From Phycisphaerae bacterium (GTDB lineage Bacteria; Planctomycetota; Phycisphaerae; Phycisphaerales; SM1A02), in assembly GCA_002709295.1 (NCBI GenBank), contig PAQL01000028.1, forward strand, positions 57,734-121,733: a stretch of DNA of 64,000 nucleotides, in the 5' to 3' direction. Position numbers and translations under genes: made by a program. This document shows, one piece after another, positions 380 through 64,000 of this stretch; the stretch's first letter is position 1, and every line of letters begins with the position of its first letter. Below the pieces are notes generated by a model that saw nothing but the letters and a program-made list of their open reading frames with translations, ran no database searches and had not been told where the DNA came from.

Positions 380-452
380 GCCAGCGTAGCTCAGTTGGTA
401 GAGCCACGGTTTTGTAAACCGTAGGTCACCGGTTCGAGTCCGGTCGCTGGCT
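380..452 (+). tRNA. tRNA-Thr (anticodon TGT)
   Basis: A full cloverleaf can be drawn. The acceptor stem is 380-386 with 445-451 (GCCAGCG/CGCTGGC), the discriminator is T452, and the D-arm contains AGCTCAGTTGG. The anticodon stem ACGGT/ACCGT closes the loop TTTGTAA, with TGT at 413-415. The T-arm contains GGTTCGAGTCC. CCA is not encoded. It reads ACA codons. The gene stands alone between mnmG and a secreted protein gene; no clear promoter or terminator is visible. Confidence 0.96.
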
Positions 453-553
453 TTCAAATCCCGGAACCCGCTTCGACTCCTGTGGTTCCACCTCCGGTCG
501 ACAGGTGGTTTTCAAGTCCCGGCCCACGACATCCACACCAGCACGAGGTCTTC

Positions 554-3500
554 ATGCACGTGATCACCGTCAGCGTCCTCGCCTTCCTTCCGGGCTTCGG
601 CATGGTGGCCCAGGAACCGCCCGGGGAACACGAGCTCACTGGGAATCCCTGGCTGGACATGGACTACGGCCCGTTCCTCTCGGCCGCGATCGAGGTCGAT
701 CCGGACAACATCGCCTGCAAGGGCGTCGCGATCCCGCTGGTCGAGGACGGTTCCATCGCGGCGCTCTTCGACACTGCGGAGCTTCGCTGGGCCGCGGGCT
801 GGGAGGGGGACTTCGTCGAGTTGCGCGGCATCGTCTACGACGGCCCGCACGGGATCTGGCCGAGGATCGACGGCGAGGCGACCTGGACGAACCCGGCGGG
901 GCCCGGCATCCACGTGTTCTCCGGCGGGAAGATGCAGGCATTCGAGGATCCCCGAACCGTGCCGTACGGTCCGCTGCCGAGGGATCTCGGTCGATTCCAG
1001 GGACTCGTGGCGGGGGAGGACGGCGTGATCCTTCGCTATTCGGTCGGTGACGCCTCGGTCCTCGAACGCATGTCCGTCGATGATCGCGACGACCTTCAGG
1101 TCTGGTCGCGGGAGATCGAGGTCGCGAACGTGGCGACCCCGTTCGATCTCTCCCTCTTCGAGATAGATGAGGAGGTCGTGCCGCCCGAAGCATGGCCGGG
1201 CGGCCACTACGAATCGCTTTCCTGCCTCGAGGGCGTCGCGATCGACGCCGGAGAGAAGCCTCGGTGGCCGCTCGAGAATCTGAACGGTCGTCTCTACACC
1301 GTCATCGAGAGGGACGGCGAGGTGGTGGGGGCGATCGGTTGGGTCGGTTCGGACATGGTCCTGAATCCCCGGGGTGCGGGAAGAGCGTCGCTCTTCGGGG
1401 GATCCAACTTCCAACCGGGGCGCCTGGCCGCCCGGGTCATGCCTCCCTTCGAGGGTGCGGGGGATGCACGCTTCCGCCTCCTCTTCGCCGAACTCGACGA
1501 GGAGAGGCTTCCGGACTTTCTCGACCGCGTGGCCACCGTGGGGCGGGGCGGGGATCTGCAGTCGGCCTGGGAGGCGGGAAGCCCCCGTCGATGGGGCGGA
1601 CCGATCGAACTCGCGGGCGAACTCGATGTCCGATTCGATGACGAGGACGACTCCGTCGAGACCATCCGGCTCGCCCCGGGCGGTGCCCGGATCACCACCG
1701 CCGGAGACGATGGCGCGATGCCGGTGCTGGTCGGTCTCGATGGGACGGCACTGGATGCGAGGACCGTCTCGCTGGACGAGGCGATCATCGTCTTCGAGCA
1801 CGGCCGCGGGGAGGCGCCCGCCCCGGTCGCGGGATGGGACTTCGACGAGGAACCATCGCCCCGCATGCGGAACGTCGTGGAGGGAGCGGGCGATCTTCTG
1901 CTCGAGGGCGCCACCTGGCGACGCGGCGTTCGCGGCCGATCCCTCGACTTCGACGGAACCGCACGGGCGATCTGGTCGGGTGCGGGGCCGCTCGACCCCG
2001 CGAGGACGCCGCTCACCATCTCCGCGTGGATCCACACCACGAAGGACGGCACCATCGCCGCCCGGACCTCTGCAGACGGTCCCTGGGCACCGGATGGCGC
2101 GACCTTCTTCGTGCGTGACGGGCGTCTCGCCTGGGACATCGGCTGGGTCGACGCACTCGAGGGCGGGACCGTGGTCGCGGACGGTCGGTGGCATCACGTG
2201 GCGATCACCAGCGATCCCGACACCGGGATGGTGACGTTGTGGGTCGATGGCGCGATGGATGCCGAAGGGAGCCTCGCTCCGAACGGCCCCACGCCGGACC
2301 ACGTGCTGTCGGTCGGCTTCACCAACGAGAACTTCCCCGCCGAGTCCCGGTTCAGCGGGTACCTCGACGGACTTCGGGTTCATCGCGACGTGCTCGATCG
2401 CGCTGCGATCCGCGCTGTCGCGGCCGAGAGCGGCGAGCCCCTGGTCGTCGCGCGATCGCTCGAGTTCGACGTGCCCGGAACCCTGGAGATCGACGGCGAC
2501 CTGGCGGTGGCGACGGTCGACGGCGGTCTCCGACTCGAGGAGATCGAGGGCGTCGCTCGGACCTGGAGCGGACCGAAGTCGCGTCTGTCGAGCTTCATCG
2601 CGGAACGGGGCGGCGTCACCGAGGCGGCTTCGAACCCGTTCCTGATCGACCGGGTGACCTGGCCGGCGGAGAACCCCTGGCATTCATGGATGCGTTTCGG
2701 GGACTTCGACTTCCTTGACGATGGCGCCGCGGCCGCGATCAGCACCTGGAACGGGGATGTGTGGCGGGTCGACGGACTCGATGCCGATCTGGACCGTCTT
2801 CGCTGGCAGCGGATCTCAACCGGTCTGAGCCAGCCGCTCGGACTTGCCGTGCGGGGCGACGAGATCCTCGTGGTGGGTCGCGACCAGATCACCCGGCTGG
2901 TCGATCTCGACGGCGACGGGGAGACCGATGTGCACGAGGCGTTCAACGTCGATGCGATGAACAGCCCGCACTTCCACGAACCGGCGAGCGGCCTGCAGGT
3001 CGGTCCGGACGGGGCGCTCTACTACATCAAGGCGGCCAGGCACGCGAAGCTTCCATCGCATCCTCGTCACGGCACGCTGGTCAGGGTCGAGGCCGACGGG
3101 GGCGATTCGTCGATCGTCGCCGGGGGGTTCCGGGCGCCCAACGGCGTCGCGATCGATCCCGACGGCGTCGCGTGGGGTTCCGATCAGGAGGGCCACTGGA
3201 TGCCGGCCAACCGGATCAACCGGATCGAGCCCGGTTCCTTCCACGGCAACAACTGGAGCGGGACCCGGCTCGGCCTCGAGCCCCTCGAGGAGTACGAACC
3301 GCCGCTGCTCTGGATCCACCCCACCGTCGATCGGTCGCCATCGGCGCAGCTTCGGGTGCCCGAGGGCGTCTGGGGCGAGCTTTCCGGTCGACTGCTCGGC
3401 GTCTCCTACGGCACCGGGGAGGTCTATCTGATCCTCGAGGATGAGATCGACGGCATGCATCAGGGGGCGTTCGTGCCGCTTCCGATCCAGGTGCCGACGG

Positions 3501-3991
3501 GTCTCATGCGCGGGCGATTCCATCCGGATGGTTCGCTCTACGTGGCGGGACTCTTCGGCTGGTCCTCGAACCAGACCGATCCCGGCGGTTTCTATCGCGT
3601 GCGAAGGACCGATTCGATCCTGCCGGTGCCGATCGGGGTGCGGGCGGAGGAGGGGGGGCTCCGTCTCGAGTTCACCCATCCGGTCACCACGCCCGAGGAT
3701 CGGCTCGCGGATGCCTTTCGACTCGATGGCTGGGACTATCGCTGGTCGAGCGACTACGGGTCGCCGATGCTCGACCTCCGCACCGGAGAGCCGGGTCGGA
3801 CTCCATTCGACGTCAAGGGCGTCGCCCGATCGAGCGATGGACGAACCCTGCGTCTGGACATTCCCGATCTCCGGCCCGCGATGCAGATGCACCTGCACTG
3901 GGACCTCGACTTCGAAGACGTCGGTCCTCGCTCGTCGTTCGTGCACTTCACGGTGCACGGCATGGGCGCCCCTTCCACGGTGGATCGATGA
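554..3991 (+). CDS. Large secreted protein: DUF6797-like N-terminus, LamG domain and glucose/sorbosone-dehydrogenase-like beta-propeller
   Basis: 1145 residues from ATG 554. This start is preferred because it begins a short hydrophobic signal (residues about 1-20); the longer in-frame start at 482 would put hydrophilic sequence in front. The N-terminal part carries G-N-P-W-x-x-M-D-Y-G-P-F, typical of planctomycete DUF6797-type proteins. Residues about 426-625 look like a LamG/concanavalin-A jelly roll, with W-H-H-V-A and D-x-L-R-V-H near its end. Residues about 695-1015 resemble a glucose/sorbosone dehydrogenase six-bladed propeller (G-P-D-G-A-L-Y-Y, F-H-G-N-N-W). The tail (W-D-Y-R-W-S-S-D-Y-G-S) matches the domain that follows the propeller in planctomycete membrane-bound dehydrogenases. 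No CxxCH heme site is present, unlike many relatives. Substrate unknown; a carbohydrate-related extracytoplasmic role is inferred. Confidence 0.8.
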   Translation: MHVITVSVLAFLPGFGMVAQEPPGEHELTGNPWLDMDYGPFLSAAIEVDPDNIACKGVAIPLVEDGSIAALFDTAELRWAAGWEGDFVELRGIVYDGPHGIWPRIDGEATWTNPAGPGIHVFSGGKMQAFEDPRTVPYGPLPRDLGRFQGLVAGEDGVILRYSVGDASVLERMSVDDRDDLQVWSREIEVANVATPFDLSLFEIDEEVVPPEAWPGGHYESLSCLEGVAIDAGEKPRWPLENLNGRLYTVIERDGEVVGAIGWVGSDMVLNPRGAGRASLFGGSNFQPGRLAARVMPPFEGAGDARFRLLFAELDEERLPDFLDRVATVGRGGDLQSAWEAGSPRRWGGPIELAGELDVRFDDEDDSVETIRLAPGGARITTAGDDGAMPVLVGLDGTALDARTVSLDEAIIVFEHGRGEAPAPVAGWDFDEEPSPRMRNVVEGAGDLLLEGATWRRGVRGRSLDFDGTARAIWSGAGPLDPARTPLTISAWIHTTKDGTIAARTSADGPWAPDGATFFVRDGRLAWDIGWVDALEGGTVVADGRWHHVAITSDPDTGMVTLWVDGAMDAEGSLAPNGPTPDHVLSVGFTNENFPAESRFSGYLDGLRVHRDVLDRAAIRAVAAESGEPLVVARSLEFDVPGTLEIDGDLAVATVDGGLRLEEIEGVARTWSGPKSRLSSFIAERGGVTEAASNPFLIDRVTWPAENPWHSWMRFGDFDFLDDGAAAAISTWNGDVWRVDGLDADLDRLRWQRISTGLSQPLGLAVRGDEILVVGRDQITRLVDLDGDGETDVHEAFNVDAMNSPHFHEPASGLQVGPDGALYYIKAARHAKLPSHPRHGTLVRVEADGGDSSIVAGGFRAPNGVAIDPDGVAWGSDQEGHWMPANRINRIEPGSFHGNNWSGTRLGLEPLEEYEPPLLWIHPTVDRSPSAQLRVPEGVWGELSGRLLGVSYGTGEVYLILEDEIDGMHQGAFVPLPIQVPTGLMRGRFHPDGSLYVAGLFGWSSNQTDPGGFYRVRRTDSILPVPIGVRAEEGGLRLEFTHPVTTPEDRLADAFRLDGWDYRWSSDYGSPMLDLRTGEPGRTPFDVKGVARSSDGRTLRLDIPDLRPAMQMHLHWDLDFEDVGPRSSFVHFTVHGMGAPSTVDR

Positions 3992-4027
3992 GCGATCCCG
4001 TGTGGATCGGTGGTGATCACGAACGAC

Positions 4028-4059
4028 ATGCGGGCGGCTCCAGTTGGAGCCGCCCGCAT
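4028..4059. terminator. Strong bidirectional hairpin between convergent genes
   Basis: Bases 4028-4042 and 4045-4059 are a perfect 15-bp GC-rich inverted repeat (starts ATGCGGGCGG) with a 2-nt centre. It sits 37 nt after the stop of the plus-strand gene and 56 nt beyond the stop of the minus-strand gene at 4115, so it can serve both as a factor-independent-like terminator. The flanking T-tract is weak. Confidence 0.8.
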
Positions 4060-4114
4060 TCTCGGTTGATCGATGTGGTCGTGACCAGGCGGCTCGAGGC
4101 CGTCCCTTCGGGGT

Positions 4115-5491
4115 TCAACCCCAGGCGGTGAAGAACAGGCCGGCGTCGGCTCCGTCCACCATGCCATCTCCGTTGAAGTCCCCGTCCGGACCGCTGGTGC
4201 CCCAGTAGGTGAAGAACAGGCCGGCATCGGCACCGTCGACCATGCCGTCGCCGTTGAGGTCGTAGGGGTTGCTGCCGACGCCCGGGACCCGGACGTTCAT
4301 GGTGATGCTGCCGTTGTCCTTGAACGTCTCGATCTCGACCTCGCCCTCCATGGGGGGGGTGTCGGTGACCATCGAGAAGTTGTACATGGTGCCCCACCGG
4401 ATGGCGTTGGCGTCGGGATCGACACTGAATTCGGTGGTCTTCCAACCGAAGTAGCCGGGGCCGATGTTCGGTGCCCAGCTGTAGGTCTTGTAGGGCTCGC
4501 CGGAGTGCGACGGGGCGTCGTGGAAGTCGCGATCGACGATGTCGGTCGACGAGGACACCGGGATCGTGAATGCGTTGACCGCGAGATCGGAGGTCAGGTT
4601 GTAGATGGCGTAGTGGTAGGACCAGGTGCCGTCACCGTTGTCGATGACGTCGTGGCCGAGGAAGATGCGGCCGTCACCGGGGATGTCGATGGCCTCGATC
4701 TCCACGGTGCTGCTGTTCTCCTCCCAGGCGAAGATGCCCGGAAGTCCGAGGTTGGTCGGCCCGGTCATGCTCAGCTGGTATCCGGAGTCGTTCAGGTTGC
4801 CGACGTTGAATCGTCGGTACGAACCGTTGTTCAGCTGGTTGCCCGCGTTGTAGTCCTGGATGTGCAGGTAGAAGGCGTCCATGTAGAAGCGGGCCGCGTC
4901 GGTCGTGGCGTTCGGGTTCAGCTCGATGGTCTCGATCTGGAGCCGACGACCGAGGGTGGGTGCCGCGGCGGGGAGGTTCTGAGGGGGATACTGGAACCAT
5001 CCGGTGGCCGGGTTGCACTGACTTCTCGGGGCCAGTCCCGACTGATCGCCGTTGAGCGAACTCGAGTACGGATCGGAACAGCCGGGGCCCAGCAGTTCGG
5101 GGCAACCGCTGCCGGCGGGATCGCAGCTGCCGCACTGACTCTGCTGAAGTGCGCAGAAGCCGTCCTTGCACCATGACTGTCCGATCTGGACGAGTCGGCC
5201 GCGGTCGAACTTGAAGGCGTTCTGGGGAATTCTCGGGTGCCGGTTGTCGTTGGCGTACCACTCGAGGTCCACGTCGCCGAGATTGACGCTCGTGGTGCCC
5301 ACCGAATAGGCGGAGACCCCGAGGACCCTGCCCCAGCGGTACACCGCGGGAAGGTCGCAGACGGCGACATCGGCACCGATCTGGCCGGCGGAACCGCCCT
5401 TGTCGCCGGGAATGGCGTTGGCGCTCAGCAGGCCCGCTCCGATGGCGGCTCCGGCGGCAGCCACGCTGGTAAGGGTCTTTCCGATCTTCAT
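4115..5491 (-). CDS. Secreted protein with C-terminal dockerin-like calcium repeats
   Basis: 458 residues. ATG 5491 is chosen because it begins a typical signal peptide (M-K-I-G-K, then an Ala/Gly-rich hydrophobic stretch to about residue 26) and is preceded by an AGGAAG ribosome site; upstream in-frame starts have no signal. The middle of the protein is not recognised. It has several Cys pairs near residues 110-150 and an aromatic, Asn/Thr/Gly-rich composition typical of extracellular beta proteins. The last 55 residues contain two near-identical calcium loops, D-L-N-G-D-G-M-V-D-G-A-D and D-F-N-G-D-G-M-V-D-G-A-D, each followed by A-G-L-F-F-T-x-W-G. This matches the dockerin-like tail common on secreted planctomycete proteins. 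No cohesin or scaffoldin partner is visible here. Function unknown; surface or matrix attachment is inferred from the tail. Confidence 0.8.
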   Translation of the reverse strand: MKIGKTLTSVAAAGAAIGAGLLSANAIPGDKGGSAGQIGADVAVCDLPAVYRWGRVLGVSAYSVGTTSVNLGDVDLEWYANDNRHPRIPQNAFKFDRGRLVQIGQSWCKDGFCALQQSQCGSCDPAGSGCPELLGPGCSDPYSSSLNGDQSGLAPRSQCNPATGWFQYPPQNLPAAAPTLGRRLQIETIELNPNATTDAARFYMDAFYLHIQDYNAGNQLNNGSYRRFNVGNLNDSGYQLSMTGPTNLGLPGIFAWEENSSTVEIEAIDIPGDGRIFLGHDVIDNGDGTWSYHYAIYNLTSDLAVNAFTIPVSSSTDIVDRDFHDAPSHSGEPYKTYSWAPNIGPGYFGWKTTEFSVDPDANAIRWGTMYNFSMVTDTPPMEGEVEIETFKDNGSITMNVRVPGVGSNPYDLNGDGMVDGADAGLFFTYWGTSGPDGDFNGDGMVDGADAGLFFTAWG

Positions 5492-5622
5492 GACGTTTCT
5501 TCCTGTGAGGAGGCAATTCTGAACCGGGGGGCCTTGTGGGACCGGTTCTTCAATGTATCCCATGACCGGGGAGCCGGGCCAGGCAGGATCTCCGATTCGA
5601 CGCACATGGGCGGATAAGGTTC

Positions 5623-5634
5623 CCCGGTACCGGG
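5623..5634. repeat. 12-bp perfect palindrome upstream of the dockerin-tagged gene
   Basis: CCCGGTACCGGG is a perfect palindrome 132 nt upstream of the minus-strand start at 5491. A 7-bp inverted repeat (GAACCGG 5521-5527 with CCGGTTC 5542-5548) lies between it and the start. Either could be a regulatory site; in GC-rich DNA they could also be chance. Confidence 0.25.
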
Positions 5635-5700
5635 TTTTCGGTCGGTTCGGCTTCCCGGATTCCCGGACCAGGAGACCAATTCAGGGTTTTTGAGGTGTTC

Positions 5701-5729
5701 TTGCCCCTCCTTGTCGGGGGTTGTAGACT
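5701..5729 (+). promoter_or_regulatory. Candidate sigma70-type promoter for tRNA-Tyr/tRNA-Pro
   Basis: TTGCCC (5701-5706, 4/6 to TTGACA), a 17-bp spacer, then TAGACT (5724-5729, 4/6 to TATAAT). The hexamer ends 16 nt before tRNA-Tyr at 5746, a suitable distance for a tRNA leader. Confidence 0.5.
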
Positions 5730-5745
5730 CCTCAACCCTTCACAG

Positions 5746-5828
5746 GGCGGGTTACCCAAGTGGCCAAAGGGGGCAGACTGTAAATCTGCTGGCGTTCGCC
5801 TTCGAAGGTTCGAATCCTTCACCCGCCA
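5746..5828 (+). tRNA. tRNA-Tyr (anticodon GTA)
   Basis: An 83-nt type II tRNA. The acceptor stem GGCGGGT (5746-5752) pairs with ACCCGCC (5821-5827), with discriminator A5828. The anticodon stem GCAGA/TCTGC closes the loop CTGTAAA, with GTA at 5780-5782. A long variable arm lies between the anticodon and T arms, as expected for bacterial tRNA-Tyr. It reads TAC/TAT. It is followed 46 nt downstream by tRNA-Pro, probably in the same transcript. Confidence 0.96.
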
Positions 5829-5874
5829 TTCCGGATCGGTGCCCGAACACCGAATCCGCGGTCCTGAACCCTCT

Positions 5875-5948
5875 CGGGGTGTAGCTCAGCTTGGTAGAGC
5901 GCTGTCTTCGGGAGGCAGAGGCCGCAGGTTCAAATCCTGTCACCCCGA
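5875..5948 (+). tRNA. tRNA-Pro (anticodon CGG)
   Basis: The acceptor stem CGGGGTG (5875-5881) pairs with CACCCCG (5941-5947), with discriminator A5948. The anticodon stem CTGTC/GGCAG (one G-U pair) closes the loop TTCGGGA, with CGG at 5909-5911. The D-arm contains AGCTCAGCTTGG and the T-arm AGGTTCAAATCCT. It reads CCG codons. Confidence 0.96.
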
Positions 5949-5953
5949 CTGAA

Positions 5954-61359: not shown

Positions 61360-61433
61360 CACGCGCGGCAGGACTCGAACCTGCAACCCTCGGCTTCGAA
61401 GGCCGATGCTCTATCCAATTGAGCTACGCGCGC
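61360..61433 (-). tRNA. tRNA-Arg (anticodon TCG)
   Basis: Read on the minus strand, the acceptor GCGCGCG (61433-61427) pairs with CGCGCGT (61367-61361; the outermost pair is G-T), with discriminator G at 61360. The anticodon stem TCGGC/GCCGA closes the loop CTTCGAA, with TCG at 61397-61399. The T-arm is GCAGG-TTCGAGT-CCTGC. It reads CGA codons. Followed by a strong hairpin. Confidence 0.95.
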
Positions 61434-61574: not shown

Positions 61575-62354
61575 ATGGGCTTCATGGAAGGCAAGCGTGG
61601 GCTGATCGTGGGCATCGCCAACGAGCGGTCGTTCGGATATTCGATCGCCGAGAGCCTCCTTCGGGAGGGGGCGGAATGCCTCTTCACCCACCTTCCCGGG
61701 GACAAGATGGAACGCCGGGTGAGGCGATCGATCGATTCCCTCGGGGTCTCCGATCCATGGCTTCGTCCCATGAACGCCGCCAGCGACGAGGACATCGCCG
61801 AAACCTTCAAGGTGATCGGCGACGAGTTCGGGAAGATCGACTTCCTGGTGCACTCGATCGCCTACGCGGACAAGGACTGGCTGCAGCCGGGGAAGTTCAC
61901 CTCGACGCCTCGTGAGGTGTTCACCGAGGCGATGGACATCTCCGCCTACACCTACGCCGCGATGGCCAACCACGCCGCCCCGCTGATGACCGATGGCGGA
62001 TCGATGATCTCCCTCTCCTACTACGGTTCCGAGAAGGCGGTTCCCGGTTACAACGTCATGGGAGTCGCGAAGGCGGCACTCGAGGCGACGACCCGTTACC
62101 TCGCCCTCGAACTGGGCGAGAGGAACATCCGGGTCAACTGCATCTCCGGTGGACCGCTTCGGACCATGAGTGCGATGGCGGTCGGTGGTTTCGGTGAGAT
62201 CCTCGACTGGGTCGAGCAGAAGGCTCCGCTCAAGCGGAACATCGAGGGGCGCGAGGTCGGCGACTGCGCCGCCTTCCTGCTGAGCGGTCTCGCCAGCGGC
62301 ATGACCGGACAGTGCCTCTACGTGGATTCCGGCTTCGCCAACGTCGGGCTCTGA
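61575..62354 (+). CDS. fabI: Enoyl-[acyl-carrier-protein] reductase (NADH)
   Basis: 259 residues. The N-terminus has G-I-A-N-E-R-S-F-G-Y-S-I-A, typical of FabI. The active-site pattern Y-x6-K is Y-N-V-M-G-V-A-K, preceded by S-Y-Y-G-S-E-K-A-V-P-G. C-terminal S-G-G-P-L-R-T-M-S-A-M-A follows. It performs the last step of fatty-acid elongation and is the classic triclosan target. No other fab gene is adjacent. The 3' end overlaps the convergent MnmE-like gene by 37 bp. Confidence 0.96.
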   Translation: MGFMEGKRGLIVGIANERSFGYSIAESLLREGAECLFTHLPGDKMERRVRRSIDSLGVSDPWLRPMNAASDEDIAETFKVIGDEFGKIDFLVHSIAYADKDWLQPGKFTSTPREVFTEAMDISAYTYAAMANHAAPLMTDGGSMISLSYYGSEKAVPGYNVMGVAKAALEATTRYLALELGERNIRVNCISGGPLRTMSAMAVGGFGEILDWVEQKAPLKRNIEGREVGDCAAFLLSGLASGMTGQCLYVDSGFANVGL

Positions 62355-63343
62355 TTCCCGGGACCCGACTCCGGACGGAGTTCGTCGCAGAAGCACCAGC
62401 GACCGTTCGACGACAGGTCCTCCGGTCGGACGATGCGGTCTCGCAGCTCCATCGCCAGCTCCGGGATGCCCTCGCCGGTGACGGCGCTGATGCCGGGAGC
62501 CGATTCCGGCTGCAGATCGATCTTGGAGCGGACGTCGAGGATCCCCTCCTCGGGGGAGAGGTCGTCGGGAAGTTCTGGATCCGGCACGTCGGGAGCGAGG
62601 AGCCGCACGACGAGGGTCGCCTCCCGGATCGCCTCGAGGCTGGCCTCGATCGCCCGCTCCTCGATCGGGTCGTCGGTCCGCCGGAGTCCGGGGGTGTCGA
62701 TCCATTCCACGACCACGCCTGCGAGATCGAGGTGTCGGGAGACCCGGTCCCGGGTGGTGCCCGGTCGATCGGTCACGATGGCGGCGTCGATGGCCAGCAG
62801 GGCGTTCAGCAACGAGCTCTTGCCCGCGTTGGGGCTGCCGACGCAGGCGATCGAGGCCGGACGCACCATGCGATCCAGACGTCGGCCTCTCGCCAGATCC
62901 TCGGCGTCGAGGGGGCCGGACGCATCACGCCATGCCCGGGACTGACGAAGCAGAGGACCGATCGCCGCCGGGCTTAAGGCGATGGAGATGGTGTCCAGAG
63001 CCAGGGCCTCGACGCGGTCGCGGGCTTCGAACCTCGCCCCCGGGGGCGGGGCCGGCGACCAGCTCGCCCCGGCCTGCTGCAGCGCTTCGGCGATCCGGCG
63101 CACGATCGCGATGCCGCCGTGAGGCATCAGCTGGGCGTGGCACGAGCCCGGTCTCAGGACCATGCCGTCGTCGATGTCCGCGATTCTCCGATGCACCGCT
63201 TCACCGGGGGCGACGGGAGCTCCCGGTGCGAGGCTCCCGAGGAGCTTCTCCAGCGGCTTCGCCTCCCCCTCGAGGTCGATGACGGCGATGCCGCCGCGAC
63301 CGGGTGGAGAGGCCAGCCAGGCGCGGACTCCGAGGGTGCTCAC
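62318..63343 (-). CDS. Shortened MnmE-like GTPase
   Basis: 341 residues against about 450 for MnmE. It starts like MnmE (L-A-S-P-P-G-R-G-G-I-A-V-I, and P-H-G-G-I-A-I-V-R-R-I) but the N-terminal domain is shortened and lacks S-F/Y-T-G-E-D. The G domain is intact: G-S-P-N-A-G-K-S-S, T-T-R-D, D-T-P-G-L-R, and S-K-I-D at G4 (usually N-K-x-D). After the G domain it ends within 35 residues, so the C-terminal helices and the essential C-I-G-K cysteine motif are missing. It may be a paralogue or a divergent MnmE. It overlaps the coaX stop by 4 nt. Confidence 0.75.
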   Translation of the reverse strand: MSTLGVRAWLASPPGRGGIAVIDLEGEAKPLEKLLGSLAPGAPVAPGEAVHRRIADIDDGMVLRPGSCHAQLMPHGGIAIVRRIAEALQQAGASWSPAPPPGARFEARDRVEALALDTISIALSPAAIGPLLRQSRAWRDASGPLDAEDLARGRRLDRMVRPASIACVGSPNAGKSSLLNALLAIDAAIVTDRPGTTRDRVSRHLDLAGVVVEWIDTPGLRRTDDPIEERAIEASLEAIREATLVVRLLAPDVPDPELPDDLSPEEGILDVRSKIDLQPESAPGISAVTGEGIPELAMELRDRIVRPEDLSSNGRWCFCDELRPESGPGNQSPTLAKPEST

Positions 63344-64000
63344 GCCTCGGCGTCCTCCGTGGTCTCGTTCGCGGTCCTCCAGGCGAGCGCCATGCCTCGC
63401 AGGACGAGGTCGGGGACCACCCGGCTGACCAGTTCATCATCCTCGAAGAGCACCGGGGCGTCTCCTCCGGTCGCGACCACCAGGGGAAAGCCGCCGTAGT
63501 GCAGGGCGTACCGCTCGACGAGCTTCCAGGCTCCACCGGAGACCGCGGCGTGCACCCCGCGTCGCATGGCGTCGATGGTGTTCCGTCCCCAGGGTTCACC
63601 GGTCGGCACCTCGAACCCCTCGTCGGGAAGGAGATCGGTGGACATCGCCATGGTGCGAAGCATGGCGGCGATTCCCGGCATGATCGAACCGCCCTGGAAG
63701 ACGCCTTCGCCATCGATGAAATCCACGGTGACCGCGGTGCCGGCATCGATCACGATGCAGGCCTGCTTCAGTTCGTCCCATGCCGCGGCCGCGGCGAGGA
63801 GACGATCCACACCGACCACCGATTCGGGATCGAGCCCCCGGCCGATGGGGGCGGAGAGATCCTTCTCCATCTCCACGATCTCGCCGCCGATCCGATCCGC
63901 AAGCACCGTTCGCAGGGCGGTCTCGGCGCTCCGGTTCACCGATGCCATCAGCACGGCCCGTTCCTCGCGATCCACCTCCGCGAACCAGGGTTCGATCGCG
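63340..64000 (-). CDS. coaX: Type III pantothenate kinase (CoaX), 5' end outside the window
   Basis: The frame is open to base 64000, so the N-terminal ATP-binding part is missing (about 220 residues are visible). Seen are G-V-D-R-L-L-A-A-A-A-A-W, the family I-D-A-G-T-A-V-T-V-D-F-I with F-Q-G-G-S-I-M-P-G, and A-T-G-G-D-A-P-V-L near the end. CoaX phosphorylates pantothenate in coenzyme A synthesis and is not feedback-inhibited like CoaA. It is translationally coupled to the MnmE-like gene downstream (ATGA overlap). Confidence 0.93.
   Translation of the reverse strand, partial: AIEPWFAEVDREERAVLMASVNRSAETALRTVLADRIGGEIVEMEKDLSAPIGRGLDPESVVGVDRLLAAAAAWDELKQACIVIDAGTAVTVDFIDGEGVFQGGSIMPGIAAMLRTMAMSTDLLPDEGFEVPTGEPWGRNTIDAMRRGVHAAVSGGAWKLVERYALHYGGFPLVVATGGDAPVLFEDDELVSRVVPDLVLRGMALAWRTANETTEDAEA

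Follow-up and report, generated by a model that had tools for sequence, protein, structure and literature searches.

The window, by which we mean the whole 64,000-nucleotide stretch of DNA analysed here, encodes an MnmE-like GTPase that stops short of the tail in which MnmE normally ends. The question is whether this is a damaged mnmE, the only and reduced MnmE of its genome, or a second protein with a task of its own. The first-pass annotation had described the gene as an MnmE-like GTPase without the CIGK tail and part of the folate domain, coupled to coaX and overlapping fabI, and this description is borne out by the open reading frame, the overlaps with both neighbours and profile searches (Table 1). 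We refer to the short protein as MnmE-S (S) and to the full-length MnmE of the same genome as MnmE-L (L).

Table 1. Features of the MnmE-S locus and the full-length MnmE gene of the same genome. Positions are those of the window unless a contig or locus is named; residue ranges are those of MnmE-S.
Feature	Position	Strand	Remarks
MnmE-S, tail-less MnmE-like GTPase, 341 aa	62318..63343	(-)	GTG start, TAG stop, intact ORF
N-domain, residues 1-100	63044..63343	(-)	Probably the opening stretch of MnmE's folate/dimerisation domain; PPGRGG motif; mean pLDDT about 72-93
D58	63170..63172	(-)	Equivalent of E. coli D60, by alignment
PHGG motif, residues 74-77	63113..63124	(-)	H75 equivalent to E. coli H84, by alignment; in MnmE structures H84 extends into the neighbouring subunit's folate pocket (PMC12397908)
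Linker, residues 101-160	62864..63043	(-)	Low-confidence helices in the predicted model
G domain, residues 161-305	62429..62863	(-)	P-loop Asn, PGTTRD switch I, DTPG, R221, E228, SKID
C-terminal tail, residues 306-341	62321..62428	(-)	Short; no helical domain, no FC[IVL]GK
coaX (type III pantothenate kinase)	63340..63975	(-)	4-base overlap with the MnmE-S start; named by Pfam
fabI-type enoyl-ACP reductase	61575..62354	(+)	Convergent; 37-base overlap with the MnmE-S end; named by Pfam
MnmE-L, full-length MnmE, 473 aa	C7:27219-28196; locus L001:1069-2490		Ends in FCIGK; follows yidC on a different contig

The short gene and its product

Sequence inspection and profile searches detected no GEFTxRAF motif, no helical domain and no CIGK tail in MnmE-S. 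NCBIfam NF003661 scores 123 bits (cut-off 380) with a match limited to the G domain (residues 149-304), TIGR00450 likewise matches the G domain only (104 bits, cut-off 252.6), and TrmE_N (Pfam PF10396) gives a weak match over residues 10-93 (14.7 bits, cut-off 29.8). MnmE_helical (PF12631) has no match at this locus, its sole match in the genome being on contig C7. In a PDB sequence comparison the N-domain pairs with residues 39-135 of TmMnmE, and MnmE chains are the best structural matches in the PDB for the AlphaFold model of MnmE-S (P0001). This single-chain model predicts the N- and G domains well, with a low-confidence linker between them in place of both the GEFTxRAF...DLTQAE segment and the helical domain's first half.

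The G domain is complete, as had been claimed, with G1 (GSPNAGKS), G2 (PGTTRD), G3 (DTPG) and G4 (SKID) all present. The SKID form of G4 had been singled out as non-standard; it is indeed there, but holds no special status, Asn335 being only 58% conserved in the family. The P-loop Asn is N172, R221 and E228 are the equivalents of E. coli R275 and E282, and judging by the Asn, GTTRD and catalytic Glu, the predicted domain is of the K+-binding MnmE type. Concerning the short tail, its W316 is invariant in the order-level alignment (A1). The surroundings also carry tRNA genes: a tRNA-Arg(TCG) gene lies at window positions 61360-61433 (-), between fabI and an upstream RNase D-like gene, and genes for tRNA-Thr, tRNA-Tyr and tRNA-Pro fall within positions 380-5949.

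A full-length MnmE in the same genome and the spread of both forms

A genome search for a canonical mnmE, as proposed in the first-pass annotation, retrieved a full-length gene on contig C7, next to yidC. Since the same genome holds this full-length MnmE, MnmE-S is a paralogue and not the sole MnmE. The two genes are unlinked, S adjoining coaX and L adjoining yidC. The YidC-type membrane insertase gene (L001:20-1072, named from its sequence) directly precedes mnmE, and the order yidC-mnmE is the classical neighbourhood of the gene. The MnmE-L of this genome is itself divergent, scoring 67 bits to PF12631 against 85-130 in most relatives, and its HGG motif reads PGNP and its switch II is degenerate (MDTAGIGSAEDPATDIDEAA). 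There is one MnmG in the genome, whose gene starts to the left of the window (C28:56105), and a search for a second MnmG-like partner gave one strong MnmG per genome and no close second GidA.

Profile searches found MnmE-S in nearly all of 60 relatives, throughout the class and across most of the phylum, which is probably Planctomycetota, while a helical-domain MnmE is present in 52/52 high-quality relatives. Gene content (e.g., a weak match to a GC-type dockerin) and the Tuwongella report cited below would suggest this phylum, and a Phycisphaerales-like member of it. None of the sampled short proteins has a CxGK ending. In other classes the MnmE-S tail is slightly longer and still shows FTxRQxxLL, a vestige of the beginning of the helical domain, and some families (e.g., L256-L258) retain more of the helical region; such variants are consistent with a stepwise reduction from MnmE. 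The MnmE-S of the family of L256-L258 (f57) has a longer tail ending in IFxxCL[RK]G, which recalls a degenerate FCIGK end.

One of the two alternatives in the first-pass annotation, a full MnmE elsewhere with a new paralogue here, was right about the full copy, carrying FCIGK on C7, and wrong about novelty in this lineage, as the family is phylum-wide. A sequencing frameshift, which the annotation had named as a possible refutation, is excluded because the same tail-less architecture recurs in nearly all of the 60 relatives and throughout the phylum. More broadly, a locus without the helical domain and CIGK is what one would expect of an mnmE copy that had been truncated or frameshifted or was in decay, yet we give this explanation next to no credence. 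An intact short gene with invariant motifs is kept across order, class and phylum, a full MnmE exists elsewhere in the genome, and in Tuwongella immobilis (Planctomycetota) two MnmE paralogues were both detected as protein (PMC8567305). That report of "two MnmE paralogues" is the only prior mention that we found; our literature search, which reached little subscription-only work, retrieved no publication describing a split of MnmE.

Among 294 genomes of the phylum, the MnmE helical domain was found in 271 and MnmG in 270. About 22 of the 294 have neither MnmE nor MnmG, and the search for S in them gives only Der-like G-domain matches (seven inspected); these genomes may represent few independent losses of the pathway. 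Families f38, f42, f47, f64, f65, f66 and f69 comprise sizeable, largely complete genomes seemingly without MnmE, MnmG and MnmE-S, and may have no cmnm5U34 modification or reach it by another route. Conversely, about 8 draft genomes with MnmE yielded no S (e.g., G331, G349, G414, G552), though such assemblies have gaps and the search has limited sensitivity; several other weak cases turned out to hold divergent or contig-edge S genes.

In the tree, S forms one group (SH-aLRT 95) and L another (SH-aLRT 99), both apart from the MnmE of other phyla; its branching order would fit S as sister to L as well as S as the older branch. Each of 32 genomes from other phyla that were searched whole holds one canonical MnmE plus Der/Era-like matches. 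A supposed additional short copy in the Nitrospirota bin G594 was rejected, being a fragment, at the edge of a contig, of an ordinary MnmE that has GEFT and FCIGK.

Partition of conserved residues between the two proteins

An alignment of 118 S, 123 L and 80 MnmE sequences of other phyla was read in E. coli numbering (the E. coli sequence is identical to that of PDB 9hip). The short protein keeps the His of the C-H-G-G motif, which the full-length MnmE of the phylum has lost: H84 is present in 115/116 S, in 1/122 L and in 78/78 MnmE of other phyla. The opposite holds for C451 together with K454, found in 0/116 S, 122/122 L and 77/78 sequences of other phyla (the exception being a truncated ORF). 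E282 is kept by 99/116 S, 26/122 L and 78/78 of the others, and R275 by 76%, 10% and 99%, respectively. Of the columns that ordinary MnmE conserves to 90% or more, exactly four (D60, H84, R275 and E282) survive in S but not in L, and about 25 survive in L but not in S. The losses of S comprise R23 (usually), F/Y73, GEFTxRAF, the helical domain and C451/K454. Where L has lost H84, Pro is the most frequent residue (53%), followed by Ile, Leu, Phe and Val, with no clear single replacement. The H84/C451 split is seen in 60 of the 62 genomes with paired S and L sequences, and Fisher values for it are descriptive only, because the sequences are related by descent. This partition of the conserved residues of MnmE between S and L is a new result.

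Specifically for the source genome, MnmE-S keeps the equivalents of G18, D60, H84, R275 and E282, has Asp in place of R23 and has lost F73 and everything after it. Its MnmE-L keeps R23, F73, GEFS, C451 and K454, has lost D60, H84 and R275, and carries Asp at E282.

Two sequences depart from the pattern: L403 (genome G341), an L with HGA in which H84 is present, regained or kept, and L446 (G444), an S with PGN and no H84. Residue D60 behaves exactly like H84, as D or E occupies this position in 113/116 S, 0/122 L and 77/78 sequences of other phyla. No described role was found for it, and its pattern suggests that it may have an unrecognised function in trans.

Could MnmE-S instead have left the pathway? 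It might be an independent GTPase derived from MnmE, for example a ribosome-assembly factor or a CoA-pathway factor acting with CoaX, which no longer works with MnmE/MnmG, the loss of H84 in L being unrelated drift. The neighbourhood speaks for this in part. In the window the coaX frame continues to the end, and across the phylum a same-strand coaX gene is the immediate upstream neighbour of MnmE-S in 54 of the 80 loci sampled (18/20 within the order, 16/20 in the class's remaining orders and 20/40 elsewhere), with obgE further upstream in 18 loci. This linkage could point to another pathway, and features conserved in S specifically (W316 and the SPLAIDLLLDQ segment) fit the same reading. Nevertheless, we consider it improbable. 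It does not account for S keeping precisely the trans folate residue that L has lost, nor for the absence of S where MnmE and MnmG are absent; furthermore, coaX and obgE are housekeeping neighbours that suggest no shared reaction, and the surroundings of MnmE-S are a conserved housekeeping neighbourhood, which is no sign of a CoA role.

The retention of the whole cis pocket and tail by L allows another reading, in which MnmE-S would be a regulator that pairs with L through the N-domains and controls the GTPase cycle, and L-L homodimers would catalyse the reaction, another residue taking the place of H84. One conceivable stand-in is the conserved Ser/Asn that follows the lost His. This is less probable still, given that H84 is present in every scored MnmE of other phyla and lost from all but one L without a consistent replacement, that D60 is lost in all L, and that many L are without E282.

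A proposed heterodimeric MnmE and its relation to known systems

The MnmE of other bacteria forms homodimers whose two folate pockets are each built from both subunits, the hinge helix being on the cis side. K454 lies next to the folate, with F73, R23, I129 and I133 of its own subunit (PMC12397908), and according to the TmMnmE-folate structure as cited in that paper, G18 and H84 of the adjacent subunit line the pocket. Both folate sites are within the N-domain dimer interface (PMC2749940). On MnmG the dimer is asymmetric, in that the swivel helix of one subunit only docks, and a doubly docked dimer has been judged highly unlikely (PMC12397908; PMC4027165). Additionally, the E282A mutation in E. 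coli abolishes GTPase activity and tRNA modification, while E282D is fully active (PMC3695501).

Because S and L keep complementary residues, only an S-L pair would make a complete pocket and a complete switch set. In an L-L dimer H84 would be missing from both pockets and in an S-S dimer the tail and the cis residues would be, whereas an S-L dimer would hold exactly one complete 5,10-CH2-THF pocket, on the subunit capable of docking, and one complete set of switch residues. L has lost the H84 that S keeps, and S is absent together with MnmE/MnmG; therefore, the reduced GTPase is most likely the second subunit of a heterodimer. We hold it quite likely that MnmE-S is the small subunit of an obligate heterodimeric MnmE formed with MnmE-L, and likely, with slightly less confidence, that such a heterodimer has replaced the homodimeric MnmE phylum-wide, fixing genetically the protomer roles of the asymmetric MnmE-MnmG complex. 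The suggestion of the first-pass annotation that the MnmE/MnmG reaction might proceed with a reduced GTPase is thereby upheld as regards probable participation, though not as regards replacement of the full MnmE.

As we picture it, S and L would pair through their N-domains, and GTP and K+ would pair their G domains. L would contribute the cis folate residues, the MnmG-docking helical domain, the FCIGK swivel tail and the carriage of the one-carbon unit, while S would add the folate residues that act in trans and do most of the GTP hydrolysis. L alone would swing its swivel helix into MnmG and deliver the one-carbon unit for cmnm5U34, and each dimer would have just one folate site and one methylene carrier. 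As many L lack E282, and E282A is inactive in E. coli, such L would depend on S for catalysis; the L of the source genome has Asp at this position and, E282D being active in E. coli, its G domain may still hydrolyse GTP. From these residue patterns we infer that S and L associate physically, that cmnm5U34 is the product of their pair, that L is inactive alone and that GTPase activity is asymmetric within the pair.

MnmE and MnmG are the human GTPBP3 and MTO1, which are mutated in mitochondrial disease. The subunits of the homodimer differ in their behaviour on MnmG, which raises the question of whose folate, tail and GTPase are the active ones. A natural split enzyme would put the subunit roles in two genes, each of which could be mutated alone. 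It would also give evolutionary support to the composite folate pocket with H84 in trans, as well as to the view that a dimer needs only one swivel tail. Moreover, annotation pipelines will probably misname both proteins, S as a generic GTPase or partial MnmE and L as an ordinary MnmE, though L may be inactive alone.

Compared with MnmE/TrmE (the tRNA U34 GTPase; PDB 1xzq, 9hip; human GTPBP3), MnmE-S has what is probably the first part of the N-terminal dimerisation/folate fold, with the H84 and D60 equivalents, and shares a predicted K+-type G domain with the P-loop Asn, PGTTRD, DTPG, R275 and E282. It differs in having no F/Y73, GEFTxRAF...DLTQAE segment, hinge helix, helical domain or C451/K454, with R23 usually replaced (by Asp here). 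MnmE-L, from the same genomes, has by contrast the full MnmE architecture with FCIGK and is without H84, D60 and often E282 and R275. Der (EngA) and Era have related TRAFAC G domains and are both among the best PDB sequence matches of MnmE-S. However, Der has two G domains and a KH-like domain, Era has a KH domain, and neither has the MnmE N-domain or HGG. As for divided labour, the SRP and its receptor, and likewise Rag A/C, are cases in which two GTPases, related yet distinct, bring their G domains together and split the work between them, although in function and domains they are unrelated to the S-L pair proposed here.
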